Positions 12,856-41,767 of a DNA stretch of 64,000 nt are shown here, piece by piece. A model generated the notes under the pieces. It was not told where the DNA came from, ran no database searches, and was given only the letters and a program-made list of their open reading frames with translations. The position numbers were made by a program, and so were the translations under genes. Each line of letters opens with the position of its first letter. The stretch's first letter is position 1. This DNA comes from Janthinobacterium sp. PAMC25594 (lineage in GTDB: Bacteria; Pseudomonadota; Gammaproteobacteria; Burkholderiales; Burkholderiaceae_D). Location: NCBI RefSeq assembly GCF_019443505.1, contig NZ_CP080377.1, forward strand, positions 3,906,001-3,970,000, in the 5' to 3' direction.

Positions 12856-12954
12856 TTTATACTATTTATTTCATTTATACGATATAAATCGTTTATACGG
12901 TTTATATCATTTATACCGTATAAACTGTTTATATGATTTATACCGTTTAATTCT
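12856..12954. repeat. Eleven-unit 9-bp AT-rich array upstream of parA
   Basis: TTTATA-type cores begin at 12856, 12865, 12874, 12883, 12892, 12901, 12910, 12919, 12928, 12937 and 12946, an exact 9-bp period. Units 4 and 8 are inverted (TATAAA), giving a 36-bp higher-order repeat. The array fills the parA-rsmG gap and could be an operator array, an AT-rich unwinding element or a simple expansion. Confidence 0.85.
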
Positions 12955-15673: not shown

Positions 15674-15689
15674 TGTTTCACGTGGAACA
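15674..15689. other. parS: parS-like ParB binding site 1
   Basis: TGTTTCACGTGGAACA is a near-palindromic 16-mer matching the bacterial parS consensus TGTTnCACGTGnAACA. It is intergenic, between mnmG and gdx, about 2.9 kb from parA. Confidence 0.85.
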
Positions 15690-15734
15690 CGCAGCATGGC
15701 CAGACAGAGGGCTGCGGTACCGTGAAATGTTTGC

Positions 15735-15740
15735 TACAAT
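15735..15740 (+). promoter_or_regulatory. Possible -10 element of the gdx transcript
   Basis: TACAAT lies about 50 bases upstream of the riboswitch hairpins. No convincing -35 is visible. Confidence 0.4.
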
Positions 15741-15789
15741 TGCCGCATCGTCCGCAACCGTGGTCACGCCAGTGGCCATCGCGGCGATC

Positions 15790-15845
15790 ATCCAGGAGGA
15801 CGGCCTCCCCCATCATGGGCACACACCGGGACGGCCCGCTCTGTA
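15790..15845 (+). promoter_or_regulatory. Guanidine-II (mini-ykkC) riboswitch controlling gdx
   Basis: Two short hairpins each present an ACGG tetraloop: GGAGG-ACGG-CCTCC (15795-15808) and CGGG-ACGG-CCCG (15827-15838), 18 bases apart. They lie directly upstream of an AAGGAG ribosome binding site and the Gdx start. This is the defining architecture of the guanidine-II class, in which two ACGR loops dock and each binds guanidinium. The gene downstream encodes a guanidinium exporter, the expected target. Ligand binding should free the ribosome binding site. Confidence 0.92.
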
Positions 15846-15857
15846 TAAGGAGCCGCC

Positions 15858-16178
15858 ATGGCCTGGATACTTTTACTCATTGCCGGCGTGTTGGAAGTCG
15901 TGTGGGCATACTCGATGAAACTCTCCGAGGGTTTCAGCAAACTCACCCCTTCCATCATGACCATCGTCATGATGATCGCCAGCTTCGGCTTGCTGTCGAT
16001 TGCCATGCGCACCCTGCCCCTGGGCACGGCCTACACGATCTGGACGGGCATCGGCGCCGTCGGCGCCTTCATCGTCGGCATCGTCTTTCTGGGCGAGCAA
16101 GTCAACACCATGCGCGTGTGCGCCGCCGTCCTCATCGTGTGCGGCATCGTGCTGATGAAACTGTCGTCCAGCCACTGA
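15858..16178 (+). CDS. gdx: Guanidinium exporter Gdx (SugE, SMR family)
   Basis: This is a 106-residue small multidrug resistance-family protein with four transmembrane helices. Glu13 in the first helix ([14 protein letters not shown]) is the coupling carboxylate. The WAY/W-x-K pattern, GFSKLTPS loop and [19 protein letters not shown] segment match the Gdx subgroup rather than EmrE-like Qac exporters. It exchanges guanidinium for protons in the inner membrane. The guanidine-II riboswitch directly upstream independently supports the substrate. A nuoA copy follows 11 bases later and may be co-transcribed. Confidence 0.94.
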
Positions 16179-16189
16179 GAGGAATCCCC

Positions 16190-16549
16190 ATGCTCCTCGA
16201 AAACTATTTTCCCGTCCTGCTGTTCATTCTGATCGGCATCCTGGTCGGCATCGTGCCCATGCTGCTGGGACGCGTACTCGGTCCGCACAAGCCCGATCCG
16301 CAAAAACTGTCCCCGTACGAATGCGGCTTCGAAGCGTTCGGCGACGCACGCATGAAGTTCGACATCCGCTTCTACCTGGTCGCCATCCTGTTCATCCTGT
16401 TCGATATCGAGGTGATCTTCCTGATGCCGTGGGCGGCCAATGTGAACGAACTGGGCTTGCCTGGCTTCTGGGCCGTCATGGGTTTTCTGGGCGTGCTGGC
16501 CATCGGCCTGGCGTATGAATGGAAACGCGGCGCGCTGGAGTGGGAGTAA
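16190..16549 (+). CDS. nuoA: NADH-quinone oxidoreductase subunit A, isolated copy
   Basis: This is a 119-residue protein with three transmembrane helices and the NuoA hallmark segment [42 protein letters not shown], including the Cys of the moving TM1-2 loop. The start ATG follows GAGGAATCCCC. NuoA belongs to the membrane arm of complex I at the quinone site. No other nuo gene is adjacent; it sits after gdx, between two parS sites. It may be a paralogue of a nuoA in a complete operon elsewhere, or the only copy displaced from it. Confidence 0.92.
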
Positions 16550-16560
16550 GCCCCGCTTCT

Positions 16561-16576
16561 GGTTCCACGTGAAACA
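16561..16576. other. parS: parS-like ParB binding site 2
   Basis: GGTTCCACGTGAAACA (core GTTCCACGTGAAAC at 16562-16575) is the reverse complement of the core of site 1. It lies in the short gap between nuoA and the alcohol dehydrogenase gene. Confidence 0.85.
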
Positions 16577-16633
16577 GGCGCACAGCGGAAAAGCGGAGTA
16601 AGCTTGCTGTCATCGTTCCTGCCAGGAGTACGC

Positions 16634-17791
16634 ATGTCCGCCTTCCAGTTCCGCACCGTGCCGCATCTGATCGTTGAACCAGGCGCCGCCACCCAACTGG
16701 GCGCGCACGTCGCCCATCACTTCCCCACCGTGCGCCGCGCCCTGCTCGTCACCGACGCAGGCTTCCTGCGCACGGGCCTGGCCGATGCTCCCCTGCACAG
16801 CCTGCTGGCGGCGGGAATCGAAGCACACGTCTTTGCCGACGTGCAAGCCGATCCCTCGGAAGCCATCGTGCTGGCCGGTGTGGCCCAGGCCCAGATGTTT
16901 CACGTGGAACTGATTATCGGCCTCGGTGGCGGCAGCTCGCTGGACGTGGCCAAGCTGATCGCCGTGCTGGCGCCGGGCCGCCAGGAACTGGCGCAACTGT
17001 ATGGCATCGGCAATGTCCATGGCCAGCGCCTGCCTCTGGTGCAATTGCCCACCACGGCCGGCACGGGCTCGGAGGTGACGCACATCGCCATCGTCACCAC
17101 GGGTGCCACCAGCAAGATGGGCGTGGTCGCGCCGCAACTGTATGCGGACCTGGCCATCCTCGACGCCAGCCTGACCCTGGGCTTGCCTCCTGCCGTGACG
17201 GCCGCCACCGGCATCGACGCCATGGTGCATGCGATCGAAGCGTACACCAGCCGCCTGCTGAAAAATCCCTTGTCCGATATGCTGGCCACCCAAGCGCTGT
17301 CGCTGCTCTCCAGCAACCTGCTTACCGCCTGCCGCGATGGCAACAACTTGCCGGCGCGCCAGGCCATGCTGCTCGGCGCCATGCTGGCCGGCCAGGCGTT
17401 TGCCAACGCGCCCGTGGCCGCCGTGCATGCGCTTGCCTATCCCATCGGGGGACTGTTTCACGTGCCACACGGCCTGTCGAACGCACTGGTGCTGCCGCAC
17501 GTGCTGCGTTTCAATTTGTCCCACGCGGCGCCGCTGTATGCGCAACTGGCGGCCGTCTTGCAGCCCGGCATCGTGGGCAGCGAGGAAGCGCGGGCCGTAG
17601 CCCTGATCGATGCCATGCAGGCGCTGGCGTGCGCCACCGGTATCGCGCGTACCCTGCGCGAGGTGGGCATCGCGGCCAGCGACCTCGATCGGCTGGCCGA
17701 CGGCGCCATGCTGCAGACGCGATTGCTGGGCAACAATCCGCGCGTCGTGACACGCGAGGATGCCCGCGCCATCTATGTGGCAGCGCTATGA
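16634..17791 (+). CDS. Iron-containing alcohol dehydrogenase family protein
   Basis: This is a 385-residue protein; the ATG at 16634 follows an AGGAG at the right spacing. It has the NAD(P)-binding GGGSSLDVAK (98-107) and the metal-ligand set Asp195, His199 (GIDAMVHAIEAYTS), His265 (VHALAYP) and His279 (FHVPHG), all conserved in the group III Fe-dependent dehydrogenases. Members reduce aldehydes or oxidise alcohols; the substrate cannot be told from sequence. A perfect parS core is embedded in codons near residue 90, and a weaker one near residue 275. The gene converges with the hydrolase downstream, with three bases between the stops. Confidence 0.9.
   Translation: MSAFQFRTVPHLIVEPGAATQLGAHVAHHFPTVRRALLVTDAGFLRTGLADAPLHSLLAAGIEAHVFADVQADPSEAIVLAGVAQAQMFHVELIIGLGGGSSLDVAKLIAVLAPGRQELAQLYGIGNVHGQRLPLVQLPTTAGTGSEVTHIAIVTTGATSKMGVVAPQLYADLAILDASLTLGLPPAVTAATGIDAMVHAIEAYTSRLLKNPLSDMLATQALSLLSSNLLTACRDGNNLPARQAMLLGAMLAGQAFANAPVAAVHALAYPIGGLFHVPHGLSNALVLPHVLRFNLSHAAPLYAQLAAVLQPGIVGSEEARAVALIDAMQALACATGIARTLREVGIAASDLDRLADGAMLQTRLLGNNPRVVTREDARAIYVAAL
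16896..16911. other. parS: parS-like ParB binding site 3, inside the alcohol dehydrogenase gene
   Basis: TGTTTCACGTGGAACT (core 16897-16910) is identical in its 14-bp core to site 1 and lies within coding sequence (codons for MFHVEL). The three sites within 1.25 kb suggest a true ParB loading cluster. Confidence 0.85.
17455..17468. other. Degenerate parS-like sequence
   Basis: GTTTCACGTGCCAC differs at two of 14 positions from the cluster consensus and encodes the conserved FHVPH ligands of the dehydrogenase. It may be a coincidence of the protein motif. Confidence 0.3.
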
Positions 17792-24899: not shown

Positions 24900-26525
24900 T
24901 CATTTCCAGGCCGCATGTATCATTTGCGCCGCTTTTTCCGCAATCATCACGGTGGGCGAGTTCGTATTACCAGAAGTAATGTACGGCATGATGGAGGCAT
25001 CGACGACGCGCAAACCGGCCACGCCGAGCACGCGTAGCTGGCTGTCGACGACGCTCGATGCATCGCCTGTCACGCCCATGCGGCAAGTACCCACCGGGTG
25101 AAAGATGGTGGTGCCGATCTGGCTGGCCGCCTGCGCCAGCTCTTCCTCGCTCTGGAATTGCACGCCAGGCTTGTATTCCTGCGGCGCAAATTTTTTCAGG
25201 GCCGGCGCGGCGGCGATGGCGCGCGTCAGGCGCAAGGCGTCGGCAGCGACCTTGCGGTCCGGCTCGGTACTCAGGTAATTGGGCACAATCTTCGGCGCCA
25301 CATAGCTGTCGGCCGACCCGATGTGCACATGACCACGCGAGGTGGGGCGCAAATTGCAGACACTGGCCGTAAACGCGGGAAACGCATGCAGCGGTTCGCC
25401 GAATTTATCCAGGGAGAGCGGCTGCACGTGATATTGCAGGTTCGGCGTGGCTTGCTGCGGATCGGACTTGGCGAACGCGCCCAGCTGCGACGGCGCCATC
25501 GACATGGGCCCGCTCTGAAATAGCGCATATTGCAAGCCGATCTGCATCTTGCCGACAATATTGCTGGCCATCACGTTCAAAGTCTTGACGCCCTGCACTT
25601 TAAAGACCATGCGCAGCTGCAAGTGATCCTGCAAATTGCCGCCTACGCCAGGAGAGTCCAGCACGGGCGTGATGCCGTGTTCGCGCAGCAAGGCGGCCGG
25701 GCCGATACCGGACAGTTGCAGCAATTGGGGCGATCCGATGGCCCCCGCCGTCAGCAAGGTTTCCCGTTTGGCCGTCGCCTGCCACTGCGTGCCGCCGCCC
25801 GTAAACACGATGCCCGTGCAGCGCGGCCCCGATTCGGTGGTCTCCAGCAGCAGACGTTCCACGTGGCAACCCGTCATGATGGTCAGATTCGACCGGCGCG
25901 ACGCCGGTTTCAGGAACGCTTTCGAGGTATTCCAGCGGATGCCGCGGCGCTGGTTGACGTCGAAATAGGCGCTGCCGCTATTATCTCCGCCATTGAAATC
26001 GCTGGTTTTCGGAATGCCGACTTGCTGCGCCGCATCGCGGAAAGCATTCAAAATATCCCACGACAGCCGCTGTTTTTCCACGCGCCATTCGCCGCCCGCA
26101 CCATGGTTTTCCGACGCGCCGCCGTAATAATCCTCGCTTTGTTTAAATAGCGGCAAGACTTTGTCCCAGCGCCAGGAGGCGTCGTCCGTCAGGTCGGCCC
26201 AGTGGTCGTAATCGCCGGCCTGGCCGCGCATATAGATCATGCCGTTGATGGAAGAGCTGCCCCCGAGCACTTTTCCGCGCGGATACATCAGGCTGCGCCC
26301 GCCCAGGCCCGCGTCCGCCTGCGTGGAATACAGCCAGTCCGTGCGGGGATTACCGATGCAATGCAGATAGCCGACGGGGATGTGGATCCACACGTAATCG
26401 TCCTTGCCGCCCGCTTCCACGAGTAAAACGTTGGCATCCTTGTCGCGTGTGAGCCGATTGGCCAGCACGCAACCTGCCGTACCGCCGCCCACGATGATGT
26501 AGTCGTATTCGCCTGCCGATTCCAA
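24900..26525 (-). CDS. GMC-family FAD oxidoreductase (choline dehydrogenase-like)
   Basis: This is a 541-residue flavoprotein. The start is taken as TTG at 26525 because AAAGGAG lies six bases upstream and the N-terminus then begins MESAGEYDYIIVGGGTAG, with the dinucleotide-binding motif at the usual place; an in-frame ATG at 26576 would add 17 residues. GMC signatures are visible (MYPRGKVLGGSSSINGMIYMRG; AGAIGSPQLLQLSGIG), as is the C-terminal catalytic His in HPVGTCRMG. Family members oxidise alcohols such as choline or other primary alcohols; the substrate here is unknown. It borders the candidate origin. Confidence 0.9.
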   Translation of the reverse strand: MESAGEYDYIIVGGGTAGCVLANRLTRDKDANVLLVEAGGKDDYVWIHIPVGYLHCIGNPRTDWLYSTQADAGLGGRSLMYPRGKVLGGSSSINGMIYMRGQAGDYDHWADLTDDASWRWDKVLPLFKQSEDYYGGASENHGAGGEWRVEKQRLSWDILNAFRDAAQQVGIPKTSDFNGGDNSGSAYFDVNQRRGIRWNTSKAFLKPASRRSNLTIMTGCHVERLLLETTESGPRCTGIVFTGGGTQWQATAKRETLLTAGAIGSPQLLQLSGIGPAALLREHGITPVLDSPGVGGNLQDHLQLRMVFKVQGVKTLNVMASNIVGKMQIGLQYALFQSGPMSMAPSQLGAFAKSDPQQATPNLQYHVQPLSLDKFGEPLHAFPAFTASVCNLRPTSRGHVHIGSADSYVAPKIVPNYLSTEPDRKVAADALRLTRAIAAAPALKKFAPQEYKPGVQFQSEEELAQAASQIGTTIFHPVGTCRMGVTGDASSVVDSQLRVLGVAGLRVVDASIMPYITSGNTNSPTVMIAEKAAQMIHAAWK

Positions 26526-26724
26526 TGAAGCTCCTTTCGGTATGCCATCAAGCTGTCGCGCGGCGTGTCTCCCCACCGCGTCCCGTTACCAGAGTCTGTC
26601 TTTCTTCATGCATGCATGGCTGTTGAGCCAGATTGAGATTACCACCAGTGCCGGGCCAGGGCGACATTAATCGTGGCGAGCCTCGCGACAAGCTAAAAAG
26701 CCGGGCAAAACAGGGGTCGCAAGC

Positions 26725-26955
26725 TGTGGATAACCGTATGGATATCCACAGGGACGATATGTGCGTAAACGAAAAATTTTTTCGGCGGCGTTTTTTTGTC
26801 CAGAAACCGTCCCACGCAGATACAACCCTTACTCAGCGCTTATCCGCACGCCAAGCGATTGTTTACAAGGATAAATCGGGACTTATCCACAGAAGATGCC
26901 GCCGTTAACTACTATTACTATTCTTGTATACGATCTTATTAAGGTAAACCCGACA
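26725..26955 (+). repeat. oriC module 1
   Basis: TGTGGATAA (26725-26733), ATATCCACA (26742-26750), TTATCCGCA (26840-26848) and TTATCCACA (26883-26891) come first. After a 17-base spacer follows CTACTATTACTA (26909-26920) and an AT-rich tract (26921-26945), then GTAAACCCGACAA. Confidence 0.8.
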
Positions 26956-27198
26956 ACGCGCGCTTTGCCTGTGCTTGACCTTCGGAAAGGTTCGCAAGCC
27001 TGTCCTCAAAAAAAGCCGACGAGCTGCTTTGGCTGACAAAAAAAATCGTGCCAACAACTGAGCGACGAAAACCGGCACGCCGGCATCACGCGCACTGCAC
27101 TGCCAAACCGTTTTGCAAAATGGAAACGTCAACCGGCTTGAGCAGGCACAGGGCCAGCAAGCGGTTCGATGTCGAAAAGAGGGGGGATTTGAAGCGAT

Positions 27199-27430
27199 TG
27201 TGGATAAGTCACTTGATATCCACAGGATGACTTGTGAGTAAACACGAACATTTGCGCAGGCCCGCATTTTATACAATTTTGCTCCTCGCGTGATACAGCG
27301 ATTATGCACGCTTTATTTTGCGCGTAAACGCTTGATCCTGTTGAAAAAAAGTGACTTATCCACAGAAAAAACCGCGTTTACTATTACTACTATTTTTATA
27401 TATAGATCTATTGTAAACCGACAAAAAAAG
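27199..27430 (+). repeat. oriC module 2
   Basis: TGTGGATAA (27199-27207), ATATCCACA (27216-27224) and TTATCCACA (27356-27364) come first. After a 13-base spacer follow five consecutive triplets TTA CTA TTA CTA CTA (27378-27392), then TATTTTTATATATAGATC and GTAAACCGACAA. It is the most canonical of the three modules. Confidence 0.85.
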
Positions 27431-27662
27431 CGGAAGTCCGGGGATATTTCCAAAAAGCATGCAAAAAACGTCAAAGAAAAAAGCCAACGGCAACAGCGCG
27501 ACCCACTGCCAAACCGTCTTCCAGGAATCACCTCGATGCCAAGGTCCGTGAAAGAACAACGTTCGTGAACGCTTAAGGTTGATTGCCAAACAGGGATCTG
27601 AACGTATGAAGCACATTAAACATGCCACTACAGCAAGAAAACCCGTGATTTTTGCTTGCCAC

Positions 27663-27900
27663 TGTGGATAAGTGTCTGCATATCCACAGGATGAGATGTG
27701 GGAAAAGTCGTTCTTTGTCCACAGCTCAATTTTTATCCCAAACAAGTCCTCGCTGGATACAATGCTTGTGCGCCTACTTTTTTGTGCGCTAAGTCGATGA
27801 TTTTTAGACGGTATACCGACTTATCCACAAAAAAATGGCCGTTTACTATCACTACTATTTTTATGTATACATCTTTATTTAAAACACAGAGACAAACGCG
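27663..27900 (+). repeat. oriC module 3
   Basis: TGTGGATAA (27663-27671), ATATCCACA (27680-27688), TTGTCCACA (27715-27723) and TTATCCACA (27821-27829) come first. After a 13-base spacer follow triplets TTA CTA TCA CTA CTA (27843-27857), then an AT-rich tract to 27884. It sits directly upstream of the nucleosidase gene. Confidence 0.8.
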
Positions 27901-27977
27901 AACGGTGGAAAAGTCGCCCAAACGGCTGTTTTCACCCTGTAAACCGTCTTGCAATGCAAAAAACCTGTAAAAACAGC

Positions 27978-28754
27978 ATGAATTCACACAAAAAAATGCG
28001 TTTAGGCATCATCAGTGCCTTGCACGAAGAACAGCAGGGGCTGGTAGAGGCCATGCAAGGCCCCCAGAGGCGTTCGCACGGCATGCGCGACTACACCCTT
28101 GGGACCTTGTGGAATATCGACGCTGTGTGCGTCCTGTCGCGTCTGGGCAAGGTTGCCGCTGCCATGACAGCTTCTATCCTTGTGGAAAAGTACGAAGTTA
28201 CCCACATCGTCTTCACCGGCGTGGCCGGCAGTGGCGATAAACACGTGAAAGTCGGCGACATCGTGGTGGCGGAATCGCTGCTGCAGCACGATATGGACGC
28301 CCGACCTTTATTTCCCCGCTTCGAAGTACCGCTGACGGGACTGCAGCGCTTCGCTACGGATCTGGAACTGAGCACGCAACTGGCCGCCGCCGCGGAAGAT
28401 TTTTTGCGTGACGATGTTTCCAGCGTGCTCAAGGCGGCCGATATCGTGGCATTTGGCTTGCAGCACGCGCAAGTCCACCGGGGCCTGATCGCCAGCGGCG
28501 ACCAGTTCATCAGCAGCGCCGCGCATCTGCACCAGCTCAAAGTGGATATCCCCGACCTGCTGGCCGTCGAAATGGAAGGCGCCGCCGTGGCGCAAGTCTG
28601 TTTTGAACTCGGTGTGCCGTTTACCGTCATGCGCACCATTTCCGACAACGCGAACGAAGAGGCGGCCGTCGACTTCATGCGTTTCGTGCAAACGGTTGCT
28701 TCGCCGTACGCGTTCACGGTGATTCAGCAGCTATGCCAGCGCCTGGCCGGGTGA
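27978..28754 (+). CDS. 5'-methylthioadenosine/S-adenosylhomocysteine nucleosidase-like protein
   Basis: This protein of 258 residues from the ATG at 27978 could also start at 27996 (MRLGIISALHEE); neither start has a clear ribosome binding site. The purine-nucleoside phosphorylase fold is indicated by IVFTGVAGS, the base/ribose-binding VEMEGAAVAQVC and the catalytic Asp in MRTISDNANEE. MTA/SAH nucleosidases hydrolyse the glycosidic bond of methylthioadenosine and S-adenosylhomocysteine. The protein is somewhat longer than E. coli Pfs (232), and substrate choice within the nucleosidase group is uncertain. It is the first gene right of the candidate origin and is followed by a terminator. Confidence 0.85.
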   Translation: MNSHKKMRLGIISALHEEQQGLVEAMQGPQRRSHGMRDYTLGTLWNIDAVCVLSRLGKVAAAMTASILVEKYEVTHIVFTGVAGSGDKHVKVGDIVVAESLLQHDMDARPLFPRFEVPLTGLQRFATDLELSTQLAAAAEDFLRDDVSSVLKAADIVAFGLQHAQVHRGLIASGDQFISSAAHLHQLKVDIPDLLAVEMEGAAVAQVCFELGVPFTVMRTISDNANEEAAVDFMRFVQTVASPYAFTVIQQLCQRLAG

Positions 28755-28830: not shown

Positions 28831-31800
28831 TTAGACGCTGAGCATCATTAAACTCGCATTACCGCCCGCCGCTGTCGTATTCACGCACAGCGCCCGCTCA
28901 GCGACCAGGCGCCACAGGGGGATGACACCCTCCTGCGTGGTGGCGATGGTGCCCACCAGGGCCCCTTCCCGTGCCGCCAGCAGCGGTTTGAGCTGGTCAT
29001 CGAGACTCGGCTCGATCATGGCGATCTGGAAATCATGCTTGACCGACTCCAGGTTGCTGACGACCTGGATGCGGTCCTTCAGCGCCGCCGGCAAGTCGCC
29101 CGGGATCAACTCCGGCGCCTGCGCCAGCACCAGGGCCTGGTTTCCGGTGGCCAGCACGGCCGCCAGCTGGTTCATCAAGGTGCCGGAGGTGGCTGCCGCG
29201 CACAGAATCGTGCCCCGCGCGGCAAAGCTCAGGGTATTGCGCTCGCCCGTCGGGCCTGGCAAGACGGTGGTGCTGCCCAGCAAGGTCGTGCGCGCGTATT
29301 CCTGCGCCAATTGCTCGACCTTGTCGTGGCCATGCATCTTGGCCCAGACGGTCAGCGCGTCGAGCGCGGGCGGTGCCTGGCGCTGGTGCTGCACACCGGC
29401 CGGCGCATTGCGCTGCAGGCGTTTCAGGTACAGGGGGCCGCCCGCCTTCGGACCGGTGCCCGATTTGCCTTCGCCGCCGAACGGCTGCACGCCGACGACG
29501 GCACCGACGATGTTGCGGTTCACATAAATATTGCCCACGTGCGCGCGTTTGGTGATGAAATCGATGGTTTCATCGATGCGCGTATGGATGCCCAGGGTCA
29601 AACCGTAACCGCTGTCGTTGATCGATTGCACCAGTTGCGGCAGTTCAGCCCGCTTGTAGCGGATCACGTGCAGTACGGGGCCGAAGACTTCCTGCGTCAA
29701 TTGCGCCAGCGACTTGATTTCCAGCACGGTCGGGGCGACGAACGTGCCTTTGACGGTCGGTAAATCGAGCGAATAATGGTCGATGGCCATGGTTTTCATC
29801 TTGTTGATGTGCGCCAGCAGATTGCTTTGCGCTTCCGCATCGATGACGGGACCGATATCGGTGGCCAGACGGTCAGGATTGCCAACGCGCAATTCCTGCA
29901 TGGCGCCTTTCAGCATGTGGATGGTCTTGTCGGCGATTTCCGTTTGCAGGAACAGCACGCGCAAGGCCGAGCAGCGCTGGCCGGCGCTGTCGAAAGCGGA
30001 CGACATCACGTCTTGCACCACTTGCTCCGGCAAGGCGGACGAATCGACGATCAGGGCATTCTGGCCACCCGTTTCGGCGATCAGGGGAATGTCGATGCCT
30101 TCGGCCACGGCACGCGCGGCCAGATTGCGGTTGATCAATTGCGCCACTTCCGTCGAGCCCGTGAAAATCACGCCTTTGACGCGCGCGTCATTGCACAGGC
30201 CGGCACCGACGATCTCGCCGCTGCCGGGCAAAAATTGCAGCGCACCGCGCGGCACGCCGGCCGCATGCAGCAATTGCACGGCGCGGTGGGCGATCAGCGG
30301 CGTTTGCTCGGCCGGCTTGGCCAGCACCACGTTGCCGGCGGCCAGGGCGGCGGCCAGTTGACCCGTGAAGATGGCCAATGGAAAATTCCACGGGCTGATA
30401 CAGGTGACGGGACCGAGCGCCAGGGTCGCCGGCGCGTGTTCCACCTGCGCCGCGTAATAGCGCAGGAAGTCGACGGCTTCGCGGATTTCCGCGATCGCGT
30501 TCGGCAGCGACTTGCCCGCTTCGCGCACGGCCAGGGCCATCAGCTCGATATGGTGCTCTTCGAACAGGTCGGCCGCGCGTTGTAACGCTTGTGCGCGCAG
30601 CGACGGTTCTGTTGTTTGCCACTCGATGGCATACGCGCTGGCGCTGGCCAGCGCCGTTTCCACGTCGGCCGGACCGGCTTCCATGACCTTGCCCACGACA
30701 TCGTCGTGCTGGGCCGGGTTGTGCAGCATGTGCGTGGGGCCATTCAGGCTGACGGCGCCATCAATCAGCGGCGCTGCCTGCCATGTTTGCTGCTGCGCCA
30801 GGCCGGTGGCCAAGGTGCGCAAGGTGTCTTCATTCGACAGGTCCAGGCCGGCCGAGTTCCTGCGTTCGCTGCCAAACATGTCCAGCGGCAACGGGATCGA
30901 CGGGTGCGGCAAGCCGCCCTGCAGGCGCGCCTGTTCCAGCGGATCGCGGATCAGGCTATCGATGGCCACGCTTTCGTCGACGATCTGATTGACGAACGAC
31001 GAGTTGGCGCCGTTTTCCAGCAGGCGGCGCACCAGGTAGGCCAGCAGGGTTTCATGCGAGCCGACGGGCGCGTAGATGCGGCACGGCTTGTCGAGATTGT
31101 CGGGGCCGACGACCTGGTCGTACAGCGTCTCGCCCATGCCGTGCAGGCACTGGAATTCGTAGTCGGTGATGCCGTCGCGCTTTGCCCAGGTATAGATGGT
31201 CGCCAGGGTTTGCGCGTTGTGCGTGGCAAATTGTGGATAGATCAGGCTGCTGGCGGCCAGCAGTTTTTGCGCGCACACGAGGTAAGAGACGTCCGTGTAG
31301 ACCTTGCGCGTGTAGACGGGATAGCCTTCCTGGCCATCGACTTGCGCGCGTTTGACTTCCGCATCCCAATACGCGCCCTTGACCAGGCGCACCATGAACT
31401 TGCGGCCGCTGCGGTGCGCCAGGTCGACCAGGAAATCGATGGCGTAGGGGCAGCGTTTTTGATACGCCTGCACCACATAGCCGATGCCGTCGAAACCGGC
31501 CAGGTCCGCATCGAAAGCCAGTGCTTCCATCAGGTCGAGCGACAGTTCCAGGCGATCCGTTTCTTCCGCATCGATGTTGAAGCCGATGTTGTACTGTTTG
31601 GCCAGCAACAGCAGCGCTTTGACCTTCGGCAGCAATTCTTCCATGACGCGGGCGCGCTGGGCGCGGCTATAGCGCGCGTGCAGGGCCGACAGTTTCACGG
31701 AAATGCCGGGGCCGTTGCGGATGCCGCGGCCGTTCGACGCCTTGCCGATGGCGTGGATCGCCGTTTCGTACGAAGCGTAGTAGTTGGCCGCGTCGGCTTG

Positions 31801-41156: not shown

Positions 41157-41191
41157 CGCCGCCAGCCTGTCCGGGCTGGCGGCGTTTTTTT
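41157..41191 (+). terminator. Terminator of glmU
   Basis: An 11-bp perfect stem CGCCGCCAGCC (41157-41167) / GGCTGGCGGCG (41174-41184) is followed by seven T. Confidence 0.92.
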
Positions 41192-41196
41192 ATGCC

Positions 41197-41767
41197 TGTG
41201 GATAATCCTGTGGAAAGTTGGCTGGCAACCTGGGATAAGTCACCACCTTATTTCCATCAGGTATTTCCACTATATTTTGGAGTGTGGATAAACATGTGAA
41301 CAAGCATGCGGACAAGTGATGGATAAGCCCGGTATAAGCTGCGTATAAACTGTAAAAAACCTGTGGAAAAGACGGGATAAGTTATCCGGCCCAGCTTGGC
41401 GCTCCAGGAGGCAAGCCAGTCTCGCAGACTATGAAAGTATCGTCATATTTTTGTCTGTCCGGATTGTGGATAAGCTTGTGCATAGTTTGCGGATAAGCCA
41501 TGAATAACTTATAAGTCCCTGTATTAAAAGGATATTTAAGGAATTTTTGTAAAGCCTGGCTGTGGGTAAAGCTGTGCAAAAGCCTGTGATTAAAAGGTGG
41601 GCAAGCGATGGATAAGCCGGGATAAGTTTTATCCGGGAAGCGATGCACAATTATTGAGAAGGCTCGCACGAGGCTGGATGTGGCGGCCGTGGAAATCCGT
41701 GATTTTCATACTGTGGATAAACTTGTGCATAAGCGGGAAGAAAGGCCGGGATAAGCGGGGATAACTT
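41197..41767 (+). other. Field of same-orientation DnaA-box-like sequences
   Basis: This 570-bp non-coding stretch between glmU and the Lrp gene has four perfect TGTGGATAA boxes (41197, 41283, 41465, 41712). Counting looser GGATAA cores, there are twelve on the plus strand against two on the minus. Many are followed by AG or AC. No DnaA-trio row like that at 27 kb is seen. A DnaA-titrating or reactivating locus (functionally like datA/DARS) or an accessory origin element is possible. Short ORFs here look like chance. Confidence 0.65.

Follow-up and report, generated by a model that had tools for sequence, protein, structure and literature searches.

The origin of replication of the Janthinobacterium sp. 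PAMC25594 chromosome is, as read from its sequence, probably composed of three tandem paralogous modules for DnaA-dependent unwinding (estimated probability about 0.78). The stretch of DNA analysed, referred to here as the window, comprises 64,000 nucleotides corresponding to positions 3906001-3970000 of a single contig of 6,549,160 bp, and its segment 26720-27891 is most likely the place where copying of the chromosome starts. The anatomy of the modules, their position at the origin, the conservation of three copies and the age of these copies were shown computationally.

The three modules (M1, M2 and M3) are direct repeats spanning window positions 26720-27891, with starts separated by 474 and 464 bp, in agreement with the repeat of 464-474 bp proposed earlier from the letters alone (the sequence-only reading). 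The elements follow the same order in each module: (i) an exact DnaA box pointing leftward; (ii) after 8 bp, a ATATCCACA box pointing rightward, with its start 17 bp to the right of that of the first box; (iii) a weak leftward box; (iv) a central ATACAnnnnTTR element; (v) an exact rightward box; (vi) a spacer of 17, 13 and 13 bp in M1, M2 and M3, respectively; (vii) a row of DnaA-trios and an AT tract. The start-to-start distances from TGTGGATAA to TTATCCACA are 158, 157 and 158 bp (26725-26883, 27199-27356 and 27663-27821). The distance of 157-158 bp given by the sequence-only reading is thus correct, whereas its description of the last box as inward is not, as the two boxes are divergent, the first facing away from the last. 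The remeasured spacer lengths equal those of the sequence-only reading. The module class is set by the base preceding the trios (class A, GTTAAC; class B, GTTTAC). The features are as follows.

24900-26576, minus strand: GMC oxidoreductase gene, left flank.
26720..26953, plus strand: module 1 (class A), GTTAAC before the trios; the least conserved module in distant congeners (0.756).
26725..26733, minus strand: M1 DnaA box 1, exact.
26742..26750, plus strand: M1 DnaA box 2, ATATCCACA.
26760..26768, minus strand: M1 weak DnaA-box-like TTACGCACA, read from the sequence; its TGTG core is invariant in the module alignment.
26820..26831, plus strand: M1 central element ATACAnnnnTTR, weakly similar to the IHF site consensus.
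26883..26891, plus strand: M1 DnaA box 4, exact, adjoining the trio row.
26909..26926, plus strand: M1 trio row, 4 strict and 6 NAN trios, spacer 17 bp.
26904..26953, no strand: M1 AT-rich tract, the least stable 50 bp of the module (99.5 percentile of duplex instability).
27194..27426, plus strand: module 2 (class B, GTTTAC).
27199..27207, minus strand: M2 DnaA box 1, exact.
27216..27224, plus strand: M2 DnaA box 2, ATATCCACA.
27233..27241, minus strand: M2 weak DnaA-box-like TTACTCACA, read from the sequence.
27293..27304, plus strand: M2 central element ATACAnnnnTTR.
27356..27364, plus strand: M2 DnaA box 4, exact.
27378..27398, plus strand: M2 trio row, 7 of 7 strict, spacer 13 bp.
27377..27426, no strand: M2 AT-rich tract (99.97 percentile of duplex instability).
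27658..27891, plus strand: module 3 (class B).
27663..27671, minus strand: M3 DnaA box 1, exact.
27680..27688, plus strand: M3 DnaA box 2, ATATCCACA.
27715..27723, plus strand: M3 extra DnaA box TTGTCCACA, present in most congeners compared, with variant letters in loci L113 and L114.
27757..27768, plus strand: M3 central element ATACAnnnnTTR.
27821..27829, plus strand: M3 DnaA box 4, exact.
27843..27863, plus strand: M3 trio row, spacer 13 bp, with a deviant third trio (TCA) retained in congeners.
27842..27891, no strand: M3 AT-rich tract (99.87 percentile of duplex instability).
27954..28754, plus strand: MTA/SAH nucleosidase gene, right flank, with no part in the mechanism.

Sequences within one mismatch of TTATCCACA number 30 in the window, against 6.3 expected and a maximum of 12 in 100 shuffles; these matches also cover a cluster at 41.2-41.7 kb and isolated boxes. 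Rfam models at gathering thresholds gave no match within the window.

Trios were scored on the complementary strand, a strict trio being defined as 5'-[TA]A[GA]-3', while the NAN rule requires the middle A alone. M2 possesses seven consecutive strict trios and is the sole module with an unbroken strict row. M1 has four strict trios, or six under the NAN rule, and M3 has seven positions, the third of which (3'-AGT-5') lacks the middle A, with a longest run of four. The trio row and AT tract that the sequence-only reading assigned to every module are confirmed, with strict longest runs of 4, 7 and 4. Three features of the basal unwinding system (BUS) are found in all three modules: at least three consecutive NAN trios (runs of 6, 7 and 4 in M1, M2 and M3), an exact TTATCCACA box beside the unwinding site, and an easily melted tract (99.5, 99.97 and 99.87 percentiles of duplex instability within the window). 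The combination of an exact box and, 5-20 bp beyond it, five or more strict trios occurs once in the window, in M2 alone, and in 0 of 400 Markov-simulated windows. The rule for BUS searches, as worded in the accessible part of the survey (PMC8287927), sets the spacer between the box and the first trio at 16 bp or less; the corresponding values are 13 bp for M2, 17 bp for M1, and for M3 13 bp to the row and 22 bp to its longest unbroken run.

Exact TTATCCACA is present in 164 of the 172 modules examined across the family, and the trio-row pattern likewise in 164. The central ATACAnnnnTTR is found in 99 of the 172, or in 119 if a gap of 3-5 is accepted, and has two mismatches to the IHF core. 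Because of this frequency and these two mismatches, the element, considered as a candidate IHF site, has been downgraded to IHF-like.

The location of the origin was determined from several independent signals. The sampled genome-wide skew (80 samples) is lowest along a plateau at 3.6-3.94 Mb and highest near 0.58 Mb. As such a profile does not suffice to locate the origin, an uninterrupted 400 kb was analysed. Within it, the cumulative GC-skew minimum is located at window position 29131, 1.2 kb from the modules, the keto minimum at 28098, 0.2 kb from them, and the TA-skew minimum 26 kb to their left. The GC and keto minima agree with the origin placed here by the sequence-only reading. Sites related to partitioning and termination point to the same region:

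15674..17469, no strand: four parS-like sites (15674, 16561, 16896 and 17454), the only ones in the genome at two mismatches or fewer, 9-11 kb from the modules.

An AT-rich tandem repeat with periods of 9, 18, 27 and 36 is present near these sites (window 12856-12950). The genome contains a single dif-like site (three mismatches or fewer) at 649075. The point opposite to it, 3,923,655, is separated from M1 by 9 kb and from dnaA by 352 kb, and in two congeners the dif-opposite point is 8 kb (G004) and 28 kb (G016) from the modules. Both the parS-like and the dif-like sites were defined by consensus patterns.

The dnaA gene lies 342 kb from the modules, and the dnaA/dnaN neighbourhood usual for oriC, which is common but not required, is absent here. 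In all five genus genomes tested (the present one and four congeners), the 5S rRNA genes switch from the minus to the plus strand across the modules, while dnaA is located inside a one-strand 5S block. An origin at dnaA, the finding that would have spoken against the sequence-only reading, is thereby ruled out in the genus. Among all 18 genomes subjected to the 5S test, 12 switch at the modules, five are uninformative and one (G292) contradicts. The 13 genomes beyond the genus comprise seven with the switch at the modules and dnaA in the same gap, the five uninformative ones and G292; 5S polarity separates the modules from dnaA in none of these 13. The distance between dnaA and the modules in complete genomes of the family ranges from 6 kb (G066) and 19 kb (G073) up to 789 kb (G292). 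G292 carries three modules (G292:C1:4389682-4390589) with parS-like sites on either side. They are off the sampled skew minimum (20 samples, 3.40-4.75 Mb), with a local minimum 0.7 kb away in a 20-kb stretch; they are not opposite dif, and they lie on the wrong side of the 5S switch, a place where dnaA would fit. The chromosome of G292 may be unbalanced or recently rearranged, and a recent rearrangement would explain the discord.

The modules are conserved across the genus. By BLAST, the region is matched in 24 of 25 genomes of the genus (the present one among them), and the genome without a match is 82% complete; none of 16 genomes from other families gave a match. Two module profiles, R1 and R2, give three matches in the own genome and no others there. 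At least three profile matches are present in all 27 genus genomes of the family search, with a fourth in eight of them; one of these eight, G012 (L107), has a weak antisense match inside a module. The strict module pattern gives three modules in 21 of 23 relatives and two each in G018 and G021. The middle module of G018 is still marked by its boxes, and two modules only are found by this pattern in G021 (L115), and likewise in the named locus L211. The alignment proposed with the sequence-only reading thus shows conservation throughout the genus, with three modules in nearly all members seen.

The comparison of identities to the window used 20 of the 23 matching loci, namely 14 near and six far congeners. 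The modules are 0.935-0.954 identical in the near and 0.756-0.815 in the far congeners, whereas the stretches before M1 and between the modules reach 0.825-0.832 and 0.394-0.438, respectively. The corresponding values are 0.914 and 0.492 for the stretch after M3, and 1.00 and 0.96 for the M3 trio block. The starts of adjacent modules are 392 to 660 bp apart across the three-module loci. The distance from box 1 to box 4 is 156-159 bp, equal to 15 turns of B-DNA, in all 146 modules measured out of 172; the pattern used accepted 141-174 bp. Because the skew, dnaA-exclusion and conservation checks were passed, the proposal that a BUS-type architecture is present in triplicate, in one direction and away from dnaA, is supported as a prediction from sequence.

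The modules are widespread in the family. Profile R1 matches 267 of 294 family genomes, 246 of the 261 of good quality, and 39 of 44 genera. Among 40 representatives outside the genus (37 genera), sense matches indicate three modules in four genomes, two in 21, one in 14 and none in one, counts that may be low, as drafts can hide copies. In the 25 genomes with two or three modules, 18 have them in the same direction (some kilobases apart), six as inverted pairs with the trio ends facing, and one as a divergent pair. Among named genomes, a pattern-based scan matched at least 119 stretches. The matches listed belong to Oxalobacteraceae genera (Janthinobacterium, Massilia, Telluria, Duganella, Rugamonas, Herbaspirillum, Undibacterium, Collimonas, Glaciimonas, Herminiimonas, Paucimonas, Sapientia, Oxalicibacterium and Keguizhuia) or to bins labelled no further than Oxalobacteraceae, Burkholderiales, Burkholderiaceae or, once, Pseudomonadota. 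The layouts were read in 77 named loci among the matches listed, and the following counts refer to these. The order ABB is found in four of 15 Massilia loci and in 13 of the 16 from Janthinobacterium; the remaining three Janthinobacterium loci are BB, two of them truncated at the end of the locus and the third, L211, genuinely having two modules. All five Duganella loci are AB, and AA prevails in Herbaspirillum (7/8) and Undibacterium (7/9).

The copies are old. Positional orthologues across Janthinobacterium loci have a mean identity of 0.834 (minimum 0.629, 273 pairs), as against 0.607 (maximum 0.686, 42 pairs) for modules within one locus. Between Janthinobacterium and Duganella/Rugamonas, identity is 0.685 for positions 1-1 and 0.725 for 2-2, versus 0.600 for 1-2. 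In a tree of 172 modules, Janthinobacterium position 1 groups with Duganella/Rugamonas position 1 and position 2 with their position 2, at modest support (0.73 and 0.62), while position 3 groups with the third module of two Rugamonas (0.998). The tree and the identities indicate that module positions are orthologous across these three genera, and the copies therefore predate them. A recent tandem duplication without selected function would account for direct repeats of similar lengths; its probability is close to nil, as the copies are older than the genera, and the conservation profile contradicts it (in far congeners 0.39-0.43 for the inter-module stretches versus 0.76-0.82 for the modules). 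Profile R2 matches 243 of 399 genomes of the order, where matches in other families are mostly single and weak (the profile was trained on one family). In two other-family genomes checked (L333 and L341), the match occupies the whole spacer between dnaA and dnaN. Most simply, the ancestral state would have been one module beside dnaA, and in Oxalobacteraceae the origin would have departed from dnaA and multiplied.

Two further groups of DnaA boxes were noted in the genome. The glmU-glmS spacer (window 41190-41735) contains four exact DnaA boxes together with several near matches, every one of them on the minus strand, and in the 12 loci inspected the exact boxes lie on one strand with mostly similar spacing. 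BLAST finds this cluster in 14 of 21 genus members and 0 of 7 genomes of other genera. It is possibly a DnaA reservoir near the origin. Seven 42-bp repeats spaced by 136-170 bp are located 1.47 Mb from the origin (L043:2626-3590, about 2458546-2459510 of the own genome), with lpxK and other minus-strand genes on one side and xseA on the other, each repeat bearing a TGTGGATAA or TGTGGACAA box. This array resembles a DnaA titration array of the datA type.

The proposed origin shares with the BUS of Bacillus subtilis oriC (incC) a strong DnaA box, a short spacer, a DnaA-trio row, an AT tract and their polarity, and the letters of the trio rows presumably resemble those of B. subtilis. The first DnaA-trio paper is reportedly that of Richardson in 2016. 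The differences relate to the number of copies, three per origin, each with an upstream divergent box pair at a fixed distance, and to the location 342 kb from dnaA. The bipartite oriC of B. subtilis and Helicobacter pylori is likewise formed by several DnaA-box groups, of which, in the available text of two sources (PMC6669920; PMC13220808), only one region of the two is required for unwinding. Here, by contrast, each group has its own predicted trio row and AT tract and no dnaA lies in between; the organization of two box groups with one unwinding element is thus not the one found, since there are three groups, each with these elements by sequence. The accessible part of the 2026 review describes a single opening site in B. 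subtilis (PMC13220808). In E. coli, oriC is also located apart from dnaA, but it has a single unwinding element; the available passages mention an IHF bend site between the DnaA box proximal to this element and another box (PMC10797057), and a relatively weak BUS score (PMC8287927). Putative double oriCs in DoriC (Gao 2015) also represent more than one origin-like region per bacterial chromosome. In the available part of that work, they are separate DnaA-box loci selected from the number of boxes, the neighbouring genes and Z-curves, and they lie far apart in three of the four cases tabulated (PMC4403523), in contrast to the clustered repeats of one module described here. Among the matches listed in a literature search, no title or abstract dealt with a multi-BUS origin or an Oxalobacteraceae origin.

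The following course of initiation is proposed. In each module, DnaA would occupy the divergent box pair and, at a distance of 15 helical turns, the strong box. The conserved centre would be bent, perhaps by IHF or HU, so that the upstream DnaA comes to lie at the strong box, from which a DnaA filament would grow onto the adjacent DnaA-trios and open the AT tract, as at the BUS. The last step, the extension of DnaA along the trio strand, is likely by analogy with the systems treated in the accessible parts of PMC8287927, PMC6669920 and PMC10721633. The fixed 15-turn distance to the divergent pair, together with the conserved centre, suggests a looped complex. We infer that DnaA binds the modules, that they are bent and that more than one of them opens; with three sites in a span of 1.2 kb, opening would be more probable or more co-operative. 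As the rows differ (M2 perfect, M1 with a longer spacer, M3 with a deviant trio), graded strengths would be expected rather than three equal copies. Since the modules keep their own conserved identity and their own trio quality, specialised or graded copies appear likelier than simple redundancy.

The most serious competitor to an origin of three unwinding modules holds that there is a single opening site, most likely M2, and that M1 and M3 load, hold or titrate DnaA, in the manner of the upstream part of a bipartite origin. Of the three modules, only M2 satisfies the strict trio rule (the M1 spacer is 17 bp and the M3 row is interrupted), and it is marginally the best conserved one, and the bipartite oriC of B. 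subtilis separates its strands first at one site, according to the available text of PMC13220808. Against this, M1 and M3 retain their trio rows and AT tracts at roughly the level of conservation of their boxes, and a titration site needs neither; the trio-row pattern in 164 of 172 family modules means that second and third copies elsewhere retain it too. A single opening site is regarded as possible but rather unlikely. It is improbable that the glmU-glmS cluster is the true origin, with the modules as auxiliaries. Its several same-strand boxes, with strand and similar spacing retained in the relatives having a BLAST match, lie 13 kb from the modules, and because of this short distance parS, dif and rRNA cannot tell the two apart. 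The whole-window scan, however, found no box there followed by five or more strict trios, the GC and keto minima are at 28-29 kb rather than at 41 kb, and BLAST finds the cluster in 14 of 28 genomes, as against 267 of 294 family genomes for the module profile (a profile being more sensitive than BLAST).

The view that the modules are a DnaA-titration or reactivation locus of the datA/DARS type, and no origin, is still less credible. It would fit clustered DnaA boxes remote from dnaA, and an array of such boxes does exist elsewhere in the genome, at 2.458 Mb. The modules, however, have trio rows, AT tracts, a skew minimum, parS-like sites and the dif antipode, and the same profile matches the dnaA-dnaN spacer in the two other-family genomes checked. 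The three-module origin remains the preferred reading.

A broader reading, put forward tentatively and at less than even odds, is that the Oxalobacteraceae have a modular origin built from 225-bp, 15-turn replicator units that have been duplicated, inverted or lost, each able to open alone, with up to three start sites and with specialised classes A and B. If so, the start sites within one origin would be alternative or simultaneous, and the two classes would differ in trio strength, for differing initiation conditions or helicases loaded.

In Janthinobacterium, dnaA is the wrong marker of the origin. In the accessible part of the published BUS survey (PMC8287927), each genome is reduced to one candidate in over 99% of genomes, and a survey ending at one BUS per genome would overlook multi-module origins. 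Bacterial origins are described with one opening site, whereas the Oxalobacteraceae carry one to three complete modules, separately conserved. The occurrence of one to three modules across the family is a natural test of the role of each copy, and these natural variants allow one to ask what determines the strength of an origin, whether opening takes place at several sites, and how direct and inverted pairs differ in the placement of the two helicases.
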